Below, in pieces: positions 2,724-58,171 of a stretch of 64,000 nt of DNA. Below the pieces are notes generated by a model. That model ran no database searches. It had not been told where the DNA came from and was given only the letters and a program-made list of their open reading frames with translations. Numbering within the stretch: position 1 is the stretch's first letter; each line of letters opens with the position of its first letter. The DNA comes from Planctomycetaceae bacterium. Its GTDB lineage: Bacteria > Planctomycetota > Planctomycetia > Pirellulales > UBA1268. The stretch is from positions 2,720 to 66,719 of the forward strand of contig JAJTED010000027.1 of assembly GCA_021300535.1 (NCBI GenBank), written 5' to 3'. The translations under genes and the position numbers were made by a program.

Positions 2724-2844
2724 AGCAGACTGTGGAACAAGGCTGCTCGAGCAGGATGCGAGGAATGCCGACCAGGGAAACCCTCGGCGGTTCCACCGGT
2801 CGGCCCAGTGGACAAAGGCCATGGAGGGCTTTGTCCACGGACAG
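2724..2844 (+). repeat. 121-bp hairpin-rich dispersed element, copy 1 (intergenic)
   Basis: About 90% identical (12 mismatches, no indels by hand alignment) to the reverse complement of 20969-21089. Contains GTGGACAAAGGCCATGGAGGGCTTTGTCCAC and GCCGACC...GGTCGGC hairpins. Confidence 0.9.
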
Positions 2845-4221: not shown

Positions 4222-6789
4222 CTACTTGTTCCGGAACGGTTCAGAGAGCACCATCGCGGCCAACAGGTCACGCAGACCGACAGCGGTCCGCCCCGTGGCC
4301 AATGCCATGGACCGCAGATGTTTTTCATCACCGTGGTCGAGACTGCGGCCGAGCACGTAGGCGTAGAGTCGGCGTTGGAATGCGTCGGTGAAACGCGGCA
4401 TGGTCGCGGTGGGCTCGATCAGCAGCCGGCGAAACTCGTCCATGTCGGCGAACGGGGTTTTGTCTGGCAGGCTTCCCTTGGTCGCTGCCGCGATCAACGT
4501 TCCATCCTTGCCGCGCCGCATCTGGCCGAACATGTCGTACTGGTCCCAGACGAATCCCAACGGGTCGATCCGCTGGTGGCACACGGCACAGGTATTGACG
4601 CTCGAATGAGCCTCGACATGCATCCGCGGCGTCAACTGGCGAAGCTTCTTGTCATTGTTCAGTTGCACGTCGAGTGGCTGCACGTTGCCCGGCGGCGTCG
4701 GGATGTCGATGCCGAGAATGCGTTCGACCAGATAGACGCCCCGGAGGATCTCCGCCCGTTCCCTCCCGTGCGATGCGGCCGCGATGCAGCCCGCCTGCGT
4801 CAGCAGCCCGCCGCGCCGCTCCGCGGGCGCCGGCACGGTGCGGAAATGGTGCCCCGACACGCCTTCCATCCCGTAGAACCTGGCCAGGCGGTCGTTCACG
4901 ACCACAAAATCGGCGTCGACGAACGCCTCGATCGGCCCGTTTCGCCGGAGCATTTCCTGGAAAAATCGGGGAGGTTCGTCGGCCAGGTCTCGCCGGATTG
5001 CCGTTTCATAGAACGAAAGGTCTTCCTTATCGTCGATGGTCGGTCGCGTGAACGTGCGCGGCTGGAGATGGATCACGGTATCGAGGCGGAGCCACTGGCG
5101 GACGAAATCCCGACAGAACTCGTAACTCCGCGGATCGTCGAGCAGGCGGTTGAGCTGACGTCGCAGCTCGTCCTCGCGCAGCAGGCTGCCATCGGCGGCG
5201 TGGGCACGGAGCTCTTCATCGGGGCAGGTTCCCCACGCCAGAAAGGACAGCCGAGAGGCAATTTCCCACGCCGTCAAAGGCCGCTGCTGAACGTCTTTCG
5301 GCTCGACCAGATAGAACATCGGCGGCGAAATCAGCGCGGCGACGACCGCCAGCTTGTACGCCGCGAGAAACGGGCCTCCGCGTGCCCGCTCGGCGTCATA
5401 AAGACCCAGATACGCCGCCATTTCGCTGTCGCGGACCGGCCGGCGAAACGCTCGTGCGAGCATGACCTCGAGCGACTCGCGGGCGCGGTCGCGGTCGGTC
5501 TGCCCCGCCGTCGCGGAGGCCAGCAGGTCCGGCGAACGAGAGGGCGATCCCACGACTTCCACGGCCAGTGAAGTCAGGATCAATTCGTTGCGTGGTGGCA
5601 GCGGAAGCTCGTGCTCCTTGCGGTGATCGCCGTTCTCGCGTGGCGTCGGGTACGAGAGTGCGGCGGCGTTGTCGATCTGCACACTCAGGTGCCCGTCGCG
5701 ACGAATGCCTTTCCAGTCGGCGCTGACGAGGGCCAGCGGCACTTCGAGGACGTGTTCCACAGGCTCGTCAGCGGACGCCGTGACGACCATTTCGGCAACT
5801 GGCACCGCGACCTTTTCGCGGGTGATGCTCACCCGGAGCACGGGACTGGCTTCCCCTGCCGGAACGTTGCCGCCAGCCGTCGCCCGGATTCGCAACACGC
5901 CCCGGTCGGCAACCCGCGGCATTTCCAGGATCAGGCATTCCGCGGGGAGGTCGATGAGCCGGGGGTTTGGCTGGAGCACGACCCCGCGCTCGGAGTCGAG
6001 CCGTGCGGCCGCCAGCCGGCCGCGTCCTTTCCCCGGGGCGATCCAGCGGCCCGTCAGTTTCAGCGTCGCCTTCTCGCCGTCCCGTGCCCCTGGAATGTCG
6101 AGTTTCAGGGCTGGATTTGGGTTCGTCAGCTTCCCCTGGAATGCGGCCGCGTATTCGCGGAGGTCGATTTTGTAACTGACCGGGGCGGAATCCTCGGCGT
6201 CGGGCAAGGCCACATCGACGAGCTGCTCGGCGAGATCGAGACTCCGCCGCAGCAGGAGCGGCTGAGTCGTTTGCAGGTTGCTGTCGTTGCTGAACCCGTC
6301 GGCACCGGTGTCCTGTGCCAGTCGTGAACTCAGATCGACCGCGAAGTGCGGGAACGACATCCCGAGCGTGTCCAGCGCCGCGTTCACGTATTCGCGGGGC
6401 GTCAACCGGCGCAAGGCCCTGCGGCCGATGCCGCCGCGGGTGACGGTGGCGGCCCGGCCTGCCGCGTCGTCGATCCAGGCCAGCACGTTCGTCAGTTCGT
6501 CGGCGGTGGGCCGTGGCCGGCCCTCGGGAGGCATCTGCCCCTGCGCGATCAGTTGCTTCGCGGTCAGCCATCGCTCGGCCTGATCCCGATCGACCAGATC
6601 GGGCATCGGCCCGTCGAACCGGACATCCGACTCCTGCTTATCGGGCCCGTGGCAGGCGACGCAGTGCCGCTTGAGAAACGGCACGACCGTGTCGGCATAG
6701 GCCGACTCATGCTGCTGCTGCGCGGAAGCCGGATCGACAGCCAGCAGGGCCACGCACAGGAATCCCAGGGTGTGCCGTCGCGCCATCAC
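4222..6789 (-). CDS. DUF1592 domain-containing protein (planctomycete cytochrome c-like with DUF1587/DUF1588/DUF1585-type modules)
   Basis: CVACHG haem motif near the N-terminus; GGLLTQAGCIAAASHGRERAEILRGVYLVERILG; VNTCAVCHQRIDPLGFVWDQYD; paired with DUF1552. Confidence 0.9.
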   Translation of the reverse strand: MMARRHTLGFLCVALLAVDPASAQQQHESAYADTVVPFLKRHCVACHGPDKQESDVRFDGPMPDLVDRDQAERWLTAKQLIAQGQMPPEGRPRPTADELTNVLAWIDDAAGRAATVTRGGIGRRALRRLTPREYVNAALDTLGMSFPHFAVDLSSRLAQDTGADGFSNDSNLQTTQPLLLRRSLDLAEQLVDVALPDAEDSAPVSYKIDLREYAAAFQGKLTNPNPALKLDIPGARDGEKATLKLTGRWIAPGKGRGRLAAARLDSERGVVLQPNPRLIDLPAECLILEMPRVADRGVLRIRATAGGNVPAGEASPVLRVSITREKVAVPVAEMVVTASADEPVEHVLEVPLALVSADWKGIRRDGHLSVQIDNAAALSYPTPRENGDHRKEHELPLPPRNELILTSLAVEVVGSPSRSPDLLASATAGQTDRDRARESLEVMLARAFRRPVRDSEMAAYLGLYDAERARGGPFLAAYKLAVVAALISPPMFYLVEPKDVQQRPLTAWEIASRLSFLAWGTCPDEELRAHAADGSLLREDELRRQLNRLLDDPRSYEFCRDFVRQWLRLDTVIHLQPRTFTRPTIDDKEDLSFYETAIRRDLADEPPRFFQEMLRRNGPIEAFVDADFVVVNDRLARFYGMEGVSGHHFRTVPAPAERRGGLLTQAGCIAAASHGRERAEILRGVYLVERILGIDIPTPPGNVQPLDVQLNNDKKLRQLTPRMHVEAHSSVNTCAVCHQRIDPLGFVWDQYDMFGQMRRGKDGTLIAAATKGSLPDKTPFADMDEFRRLLIEPTATMPRFTDAFQRRLYAYVLGRSLDHGDEKHLRSMALATGRTAVGLRDLLAAMVLSEPFRNK

Positions 6790-20374: not shown

Positions 20375-21919
20375 TCAGCCAACGGCTCGTGCGGCCAATA
20401 CCGCCGCGGCAGCCGCCCGGCCCGAGGCGATCACCTGCGGGATGCCGACGCCTCGATAGGCGGCCCCGGCGAGCACGAAGCCGCCGATCGCCCGGCCGCG
20501 TTCCTCGATTCGCGCCACGCGGTCCAGGTGGCCGACGTGGTACTGCGGCATCGCCGCCTGCCAGCGATCGATCTGCACGAGCAGCGGCTGGCCTGTCGCG
20601 CCGATCAGGATCGCCACCTCCTCGCGGGCCAGCGTCGTGAGGTCCGCATCGGACAGCCGGGCGGTTGCCGGGTCGAGCGCCCCGCCGACGAACACCCGCA
20701 CGAGCACGCAGCCCGCCGGCGCCCGGCCGGGAAACTTCGCGCTGGAAAAGCTCACCGCCAACGCCCGCCGCCCTGCGGCCCGGGGCACCACCATGCCCGC
20801 CGCGTCGAGAGGATGCGCGACGCGGTCGCGTGGAAAGCCGAGCGACACGACCGCCGAGCCGGCGTATTCGATCGCCGCCAGATCGGCGGCAAGGGCGGCA
20901 TCGACGGTGCCGACGAGACCCGCCGCCACCGGCGCCGGCACCGCGACGACGACCGCATCGGCCTCCAGCTGTCCGTGGACAAAGCCCTCCATGGCCTTTG
21001 TCCACTTGGCCGACTGGTGGAAATGCCCAGGGTTTCCACGGTCGGCATTCCTCACATCCTGCTCGGACAGACTTGTGCCACAGTCTGCTAGCGGCGGCAG
21101 GGCCGTGCCCGCGGCGACGAGCGGGATCAGCCACCGCCCGGATGCGTCACGGGCGAGCGGGCCGGCGGCTGCCGTGATGAACGCCACGCCGCGGTCGGCG
21201 AGCACCGCCGCCAGCCGCCGGGGCAGGACCTCCATGCCGTCGGCGAGCGTGACAAACTGACCGTAGCGGGCGCCCGCCGCCGCGGGGCCGGCACCGGCCT
21301 GCCGCAACCGGGCCCGTTCGCCTGCCCACAGGCTGCCGTGCGTTCGTTCCATCGCGAAAAAATCGGGACAGGCCGCCGCCATGCTCAGGCGGGCCGGGTC
21401 GGCCGTCCAGATGCCGGCGGCCAAGGGCTGCACCAGCCGCTCGAACGCCTGCCGGCCCAGCCGTCGCAGGGCGAACGACTCCAGCGATTCGTCCGTGGCC
21501 GCGGGATCGCGGGTTGGAATGAAAGGTTCCGCGAGCAGTCGCAGCCGTCCAGCCGGCGACAAGAGCGGGGTGCCGAGAATGCCATCGACGCGGCCCGGGG
21601 CCAGCAGGCGGAAGCCGGTCGGCGCCGGGACGGCCCGCCCAGCGTGCCAGATGAGTGCCCGTCGCACCCGTGGATCGACGCCCACGAGCTCGGCCGCGAG
21701 GCCGAGCCTGTGGGCGAGCTCCATTCCCTCGGGGCGGACGGCGAGGAAACTGTCGGCCGAACGCTCCACGAGCCATCCATCGCGCCGCGCGGTCGCGATC
21801 ACGCCCCCCGGCCTGCCGGTGGACTCGACGACGGAGACGCGACACGCAGCGGCGGCGACGATCGCCTCCGCGGCGGCGAGGCCGGCCATGCCGCCGCCGA
21901 TCACCACTACATGCTGCAT
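20375..21919 (-). CDS. hemY: Protoporphyrinogen oxidase (HemY-type), carrying an in-frame repeat insertion
   Basis: MQHVVVIGGGMAGLAAAEAIVAAAACRVSVVESTGRPGGVI dinucleotide fold; C-terminal IGGFVLAGAAYRGVGIPQVIASGRAAAAAVL. Start re-assigned from the longer ORF. Confidence 0.85.
   Translation of the reverse strand: MQHVVVIGGGMAGLAAAEAIVAAAACRVSVVESTGRPGGVIATARRDGWLVERSADSFLAVRPEGMELAHRLGLAAELVGVDPRVRRALIWHAGRAVPAPTGFRLLAPGRVDGILGTPLLSPAGRLRLLAEPFIPTRDPAATDESLESFALRRLGRQAFERLVQPLAAGIWTADPARLSMAAACPDFFAMERTHGSLWAGERARLRQAGAGPAAAGARYGQFVTLADGMEVLPRRLAAVLADRGVAFITAAAGPLARDASGRWLIPLVAAGTALPPLADCGTSLSEQDVRNADRGNPGHFHQSAKWTKAMEGFVHGQLEADAVVVAVPAPVAAGLVGTVDAALAADLAAIEYAGSAVVSLGFPRDRVAHPLDAAGMVVPRAAGRRALAVSFSSAKFPGRAPAGCVLVRVFVGGALDPATARLSDADLTTLAREEVAILIGATGQPLLVQIDRWQAAMPQYHVGHLDRVARIEERGRAIGGFVLAGAAYRGVGIPQVIASGRAAAAAVLAARAVG
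20969..21089 (-). repeat. 121-bp hairpin-rich dispersed element, copy 2 (in-frame within hemY)
   Basis: Same length as and about 90% identical to 2724-2844 in inverted orientation; encodes the extra segment around DCGTSLSEQDVRNADRGNPGHFHQSAKWTKAMEGFVHGQ. Confidence 0.9.
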
Positions 21920-57726: not shown

Positions 57727-58171
57727 CGCACGGGACGCCTGGCCCGCGGCCGGAACGGCGGTCGGAGTCTAACGATCCGCGGACAAAGCCATCCATGCCC
57801 GTCCACTCGGCCACTCGGCCGACCTGCGCTGATTCGGAAGGGGTGCCCATGCCCCAGGAGCCGGCGTAGGTGGCCAGCGCAGGCAGGATGCCGGAGCGCC
57901 AGCCACCTCCGAGTGAGCGGAGGCCCGGACGGCCGCAGCGAACGTCCGGCGATGGGGCGTGGGCAACCCCGACCAGCGTCGCGGGCGAGGATCGAGTGTT
58001 ATCCGTATTGCGTGCAGCACCGGCTCAGGGGCGGCAAAAGTCTCCTCGCTGTGGCCGCGGCGGCCACACGCTCGTCGAGCGTTCGCCGACCCCTTCGCCT
58101 CGCCTTCGCAAACTGCCAACTCGTCGATACGGCGAAACGATACGCCATCTTGCGACGGATCGGAAAAGCAA

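Follow-up and report, generated by a model that had tools for sequence, protein, structure and literature searches.

Why should a protoporphyrinogen oxidase gene, hemY, contain a stretch of some 40 codons whose DNA recurs between two other genes? The question is raised by a 64,000-nucleotide stretch (the window) of a planctomycete MAG of 4.0 Mb (197 contigs, 86% complete). We consider it about 80% probable that the stretch in hemY is a copy of a 119-bp MITE moved in trans by an IS1182-like DDE transposase. The features on which this reading rests are collected in Table 1.

The HemY insertion and the extent of its family

The reading frame that holds the stretch matches TIGR00562 with 249 bits (cut-off 98). 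A preliminary description of this DNA held that the frame stays open across the segment, with an in-frame gain of about 40 residues at a likely loop, and this agrees with what we see: 41 residues, modeled by AlphaFold as a disordered stretch (pLDDT ~32, against a mean of 73 for HemY) at the tip of a beta-hairpin, between strands 263-268 and 316-320, in a region that varies among orthologues. Given the disordered loop and the variable region, the insert is likely tolerated, and HemY would still be functional with it. Alignment of orthologues shows HemY of all 21 other genomes of the genus without the 41-residue segment, which identifies it as an insertion. That it is instead an ordinary conserved part of HemY, with the second copy arising by chance or as a local duplicate, is refuted by its absence from these orthologues and by dozens of copies elsewhere.

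Within the window, positions 20969-21089 and the reverse complement of 2724-2844, each 121 bp long, are 90.1% identical, with 12 mismatches and no gaps, much as the preliminary description had it (121-bp pair, about 90%). The second copy lies 21 bp past the stop codon of the preceding minus-strand gene, and a remnant of part of the first hairpin lies further along (Table 1), without a match to the structure model. The pair is no local duplication: the 121-mer has 48 BLAST matches in its own genome (E <= 1e-3, 73-100% identity), and a covariance model, R1, built on 48 copies, has 99 matches there (150 candidates scored).

BLAST matches are found in 18 of the 22 genomes of the genus, at 0 to 47 per genome. 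R1 matches extend to 65 of 72 genomes of the GTDB family, spanning all 12 of its genera, with counts per genome that level off at ~50, since 50 candidates were scored in each. An even sample of the order contained the element in 25 of 26 genomes of this family and, by a weak match (E 5.5e-5), in 1 of 131 outside it. When 85,462 species genomes were scanned with a strict pattern, 27 stretches matched, each from a MAG labeled as planctomycete and in most cases as Pirellulales or Planctomycetaceae. Copy number among related species varies from 0 to ~100, and locations mostly differ. These searches confirm that the element is dispersed through its own genome and its relatives and nearly absent from the rest of the order, and the earlier view of a structured, mobile-like element has held.

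Table 1. Features of the hemY locus, of the element copies in the window, and of a repeat nested in other copies (positions are those of the window unless a locus is named)
Feature	Position	Strand	Evidence and remarks
hemY, protoporphyrinogen oxidase, 514 aa including insert (start codon assumed)	20378..21919	-	TIGR00562; PDB relatives 3i6d, 2ivd
41 inserted HemY codons, residues 278-318 of 514	20966..21088	-	missing from 21 genus orthologues; pLDDT ~32
Element copy 1, 119-bp unit CTG...CTG	20969..21087	+	antisense to hemY; alignment and structure model, 129.8 bits
Left border tetranucleotide CCAG, imperfect partner of CTAG	20965..20968	.	sequence; border statistics
Hairpin H1, loop TCCAT	20975..21005	+	co-variation
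Hairpin H2, loop type GCCGAGG	21009..21046	+	co-variation
Hairpin H3, eroded in copy 1	21050..21066	+	co-variation in relatives
Hairpin H4, right end	21067..21088	+	co-variation
Right border tetranucleotide CTAG	21088..21091	.	sequence; border statistics
Element copy 2, intergenic	2726..2844	-	structure model, 129.5 bits; genomic context
Element remnant, hairpin H1 part only	57776..57812	+	BLAST E 4e-5
Repeat inserted in H1 loop	L038:2925-3140, L043:2840-3090; also L030, L031, L039, L192, L195		

Four hairpins and their co-variation

Aligned copies share one order: a CTAG-like border, CTGTCC, the hairpins H1, H2, H3 and H4, and a second CTAG-like border. Two hairpins had been named at the outset; both are present, and two further ones, H3 and H4, are found besides, as are a CTAG-type target, border repeats, tandem and nested copies and a likely autonomous partner insertion sequence, none of which that description had noted. 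H1 in the aligned copies is GTGGANAAAG, with TCCAT in its loop; the H2 loop has the consensus GCC[G/A]AGG, H3 (CGCCGCATCCTGCGGCG) is eroded in most copies of the own genome, and the H4 stem is GCAGACT...AGTCTGC. Both ends carry imperfect terminal inverted repeats, CWGWCYGTGGA(A)CAARG (left CTGTCCGTGGACAAAG; right, inverted, CAGACTGTGGAACAAGTC). As a single strand the element folds better than 200 of 200 shuffled sequences (z = -3.5 as RNA, -4.1 as DNA), and an Rfam search at gathering and relaxed thresholds returned no match.

Evidence of conservation comes from paired changes. Among 48 copies, nearly all from the genus, double-sided changes occur in 19 of 40 pairs (89 cells against 26 +/- 3.5 when shuffled). 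In a second set, of 46 distinct copies drawn from other genera and from public contigs, a few of them once more from the genus, they occur in 34 of 40 (195 cells against 54 +/- 7), this alignment being fitted to the model and hence leaning towards structure; sliding the partner by 1-3 columns leaves at most 49 cells. Loops are nearly invariant and the linkers between hairpins variable. The four stems co-vary strongly over 12 genera with their loops fixed, and the fold is conserved. An outer stem proposed by RNAalifold (columns 1-5 with 98-102) competes with H4.

The four-hairpin fold finds no account in DDE transposition, which needs no co-varying hairpins. A possible, though rather doubtful, explanation is that mutation itself produced the co-variation. 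Quasi-palindromes are known to undergo template switching, a mutational process that would repair one arm from the other without selection on structure; the stems are indeed long near-perfect palindromes, and the slid controls of the pair count show merely that pairing is specific. By itself, however, template switching leaves both the invariant loops and the eroded H3 of the own-genome subfamily unexplained.

Copies also vary in composition. Short forms ending at H3 occur, as do tandem copies (L044, L046, L116 and L121, for example), and many loci (L023, L030, L036, L194, L196-L198, L203, L204, L207) hold a subfamily whose H2 includes an additional hairpin (CAGACCTCGGCGCAGCCGAGG). The H1 loop of copies L038 and L043 is interrupted by another short repeat (ends GTTCGGCACGA...TCGTGCCGAAC), which sits at the identical point in several copies; it seems that this composite spread as a unit or that the site was struck repeatedly. 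At L005 (G000:C121, ~5300-5750), an element copy is flanked by another tandem repeat made of a chain of hairpins (CGTAGCGAAATGGCCATGGATGGCATTTCG...); the stems of this repeat differ, and two of its loops, ATGGAT and AGGA, are identical to the complementary-strand loops of H1 and H3. In genome G021 (L081-L087) the short form is part of a larger repeat whose inverted arms are CCCCCGAGCC...GGCTCGGGGG. On the complementary strand of 20969-21089, GGA is present in the loops of H1, H3 and H4 (ATGGA, AGGA and TGGAA, respectively); GGA is a motif bound in hairpin loops by CsrA-type proteins.

CTAG-like borders and gene 3' ends

Borders of the element show a preference with partial repeats. The left tetranucleotide has C in 69, T in 64, A in 57 and G in 64 of 76 copies, and the right has the identical consensus. 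Left and right agree in 29 of 76 copies, where shuffling predicts 19.6 (p 0.0006); many others are imperfect, and the association rests mainly on the last base, the only one individually associated. Five identical pairs other than CTAG occur (TGAG, CTCG twice, CTAA twice); when the flanks of L018, which has TGAG at both borders, are joined there, the result is MRLTLSIPPRRWLAAVMAGICLVAIGQSAHAQ, plausible as a signal peptide. While both segments do have the 121 bp originally assigned to them, the register favored by the borders is instead 119 bp plus 4-bp border repeats. These patterns support, rather than prove, a unit of 119 bp that duplicates 4 bp of its target, and the duplication would be the chemistry behind the repeats. 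In this register the net gain is 123 nt (119 + 4) in 41 of 48 full-length copies, making insertion frame-neutral.

The main habitat of the element is the 3' ends of genes, often precisely on the stop codon. In a codon-usage scan of 71 loci, with a coding model trained on the window, the left border coincides with the end of the upstream gene's stop codon in 18, and in another 6 the right border is overlapped by the stop of a convergent gene. Such abutment (24 of 71) is far commoner than any other distance, and among the abutting copies the sense orientation is favored 18 to 6. A few of the stop-codon loci are orthologous between species, so independent events are fewer than copies. One gene has a copy at its stop codon that three sister species share (L056, L057, L061), and the own genome has a truncated copy of a different subfamily at the stop of apparently that gene (L040), which suggests an independent strike on one CTAG.

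Clear in-frame intragenic copies number 3 among the ~41 BLAST-detected loci of the own genome, in HemY, in a HEAT-repeat protein (L021), and at the N-terminus of a signal-peptide protein (L018). With so few in frame and most copies at gene 3' ends, the protein-tolerated family akin to Rickettsia palindromic elements (RPEs) that the preliminary description envisaged is not supported. RPEs are elements of 105-146 bp with stem-loops and terminal inverted repeats, inserted in frame within conserved protein genes (PMC2229807). The present element resembles them in size range, stem-loops, terminal inverted repeats and in-frame insertion in protein genes; it differs in lying mostly at gene 3' ends, with intragenic copies rare rather than frequent, and in having an identified likely partner insertion sequence (IS). 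RPEs belong to another phylum and are, as far as known, unrelated in sequence, the two being set apart by description.

Under the transposon reading, the transposase would recognize the imperfect terminal repeats and cut CTAG-like targets, producing 4-bp target copies on either side. CTAG holds TAG on both strands and, in this GC-rich genome, often stands at stop codons; insertion there would regenerate the stop and leave the protein unchanged, which would account for the placement. The fresh CTAG at each border could be struck again, and tandem copies would follow from these new sites. An insertion within a gene would be tolerated at a loop, provided that the reading frame stays open through the element, HemY being the example.

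An unlikely alternative is that the element is a functional RNA or single-stranded DNA whose fold is maintained by selection for a role in the host at gene 3' ends, mobility being secondary. Such selection would be in keeping with the paired changes (34 of 40 pairs; 195 cells against 54) and with loops held nearly invariant between linkers that are not. The same can be said of the gene 3'-end placement and the 18-to-6 bias in orientation at stops, but a CTAG target alone yields the placement. Copy numbers of 0 to ~100 among related species, at mostly different locations, further argue against a host function, as do the copy that interrupts hemY and the lack of an Rfam match.

A candidate partner insertion sequence

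To return to the transposon reading, a scan of DDE_Tnp_1 loci for the ends of the element led to two loci of the sister genome G007, L277 and L287. At both, a transposase gene lies between inverted end sequences with CTAG, within 1.49 kb, and CTAG flanks either side. L277 has an open frame of ~450 codons; its ends, CTAG-CAGCCTGTGGAAAAAGTC and, inverted, CTAG-CAGGCCGTGGACAAAG, each match their own counterpart in the MITE, the inverted right end and the left end, with 16 of 18 and 14 of 16 bases identical. The MITE ends are in this way common to an autonomous transposon. Another IS copy of G007 (L257) contains a single internal stop, and G004, which has many MITE copies, contains a related transposase gene that is uninterrupted for 448 codons and lacks a clean right end.

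The transposases combine DUF772 and DDE_Tnp_1, as in the IS1182 family. Their nearest NCBIfam model is that of IS1182 (NF033551), at 182 and 193 bits; this is under the curated cut-off of 270 and still the best match, and by sequence the partner appears to be an IS1182 relative rather than a proven member. Literature on IS1182 with CTAG offered nothing useful. In the own genome, neither an end-pattern search nor the DDE_Tnp_1 loci revealed an IS of this kind, the former returning only further, truncated or nested copies where inspected; nor did one turn up among the DDE_Tnp_1 loci of four other genomes with many MITE copies (G005, G014, G015, G021). These loci were identified by PF01609, which some transposases may escape. 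MAGs lose repeats, and the absence from the own genome may reflect loss or MAG gaps. An IS of the L277/L287 type is the likely mobilizer, and the matching ends and CTAG flanks suggest that it moved the MITE.

Another candidate was an IS701-type transposase (DDE_5). The target of IS701 is YTAG. We rejected this candidate, as PF13546 was found only in G006 and G007, both with few BLAST copies.

Like other bacterial MITEs (PMC2229807, PMC10969869), the element is short (119 bp), non-coding and dispersed in many copies, with terminal inverted repeats, border repeats, and ends that match a full-length IS. What sets it apart is that four hairpins have co-varied over 12 genera around unchanged loops, that its CTAG target falls on stop codons, and that it is nearly confined to one planctomycete family.

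It is very unlikely that the element is of REP/REPIN type, moved as single-stranded DNA by a RAYT (Y1 HUH) transposase, CTAG serving as the tag and the hairpins forming the fold that is recognized. GTAG REPs, known in planctomycetes, are single hairpins of 20-40 bp with GTAG at one end that supply TAG stop codons to neighboring ORFs, some copies being intragenic (PMC3733652). The element likewise has hairpins adjoining a tetranucleotide tag, provides TAG stops and has some intragenic copies, and one short-form copy lies ~300 bp from the only RAYT gene of its own genome. Yet it is 119 bp long, with four hairpins and CTAG rather than GTAG, at both ends, and the Y1 gene is absent from G001, G004, G015 and G021, which carry 13-36 copies. 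Conversely, G009, G012 and G017 have Y1 genes and no BLAST copies, and among 19 Y1 loci scanned with the model a copy was found at the own-genome locus only. Lacking such an association across the genus, RAYT was rejected as mobilizer, and RAYT/REP membership is not supported. Repeated GC-rich hairpins of the ccccgggtttccacccgggg type border the own genome's RAYT gene (L079:6109-6606, G000:C177) and are probably that gene's own REP families.

Among literature on palindromic or miniature elements in planctomycetes, the REP survey alone was relevant, and a search for stop-codon MITEs found nothing relevant. As far as the searched literature shows, single traits such as TAG supply and in-frame genic copies are already known, and their combination, together with the conserved four-hairpin fold, is new.

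The likely IS1182-like partner, a CTAG target that would regenerate stop codons, and a frame-neutral length would together explain how such an element can multiply in gene-dense genomes with little damage. For annotation, ~100 copies per genome become recognizable, and in-frame or C-terminal extensions such as that of HemY can be explained. The family also provides a clear case of mobile DNA whose secondary structure is kept by paired changes over 12 genera, and the origin of a transposon fold becomes testable, whether in selection as RNA, selection as single-stranded DNA, or template switching. Our guess is that the fold has an effect at mRNA 3' ends. It is conceivable, if improbable, that the element is a mobile regulatory module, with selection acting on the folded four-hairpin structure and its fixed loops (H1 UCCAU, H2 GCCGAGG, H3 UCC) through a host or element-encoded binding partner. 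If so, a transposon would have distributed one standard device for 3' ends among dozens of genes throughout a whole bacterial family, with stop codons as its landing sites.
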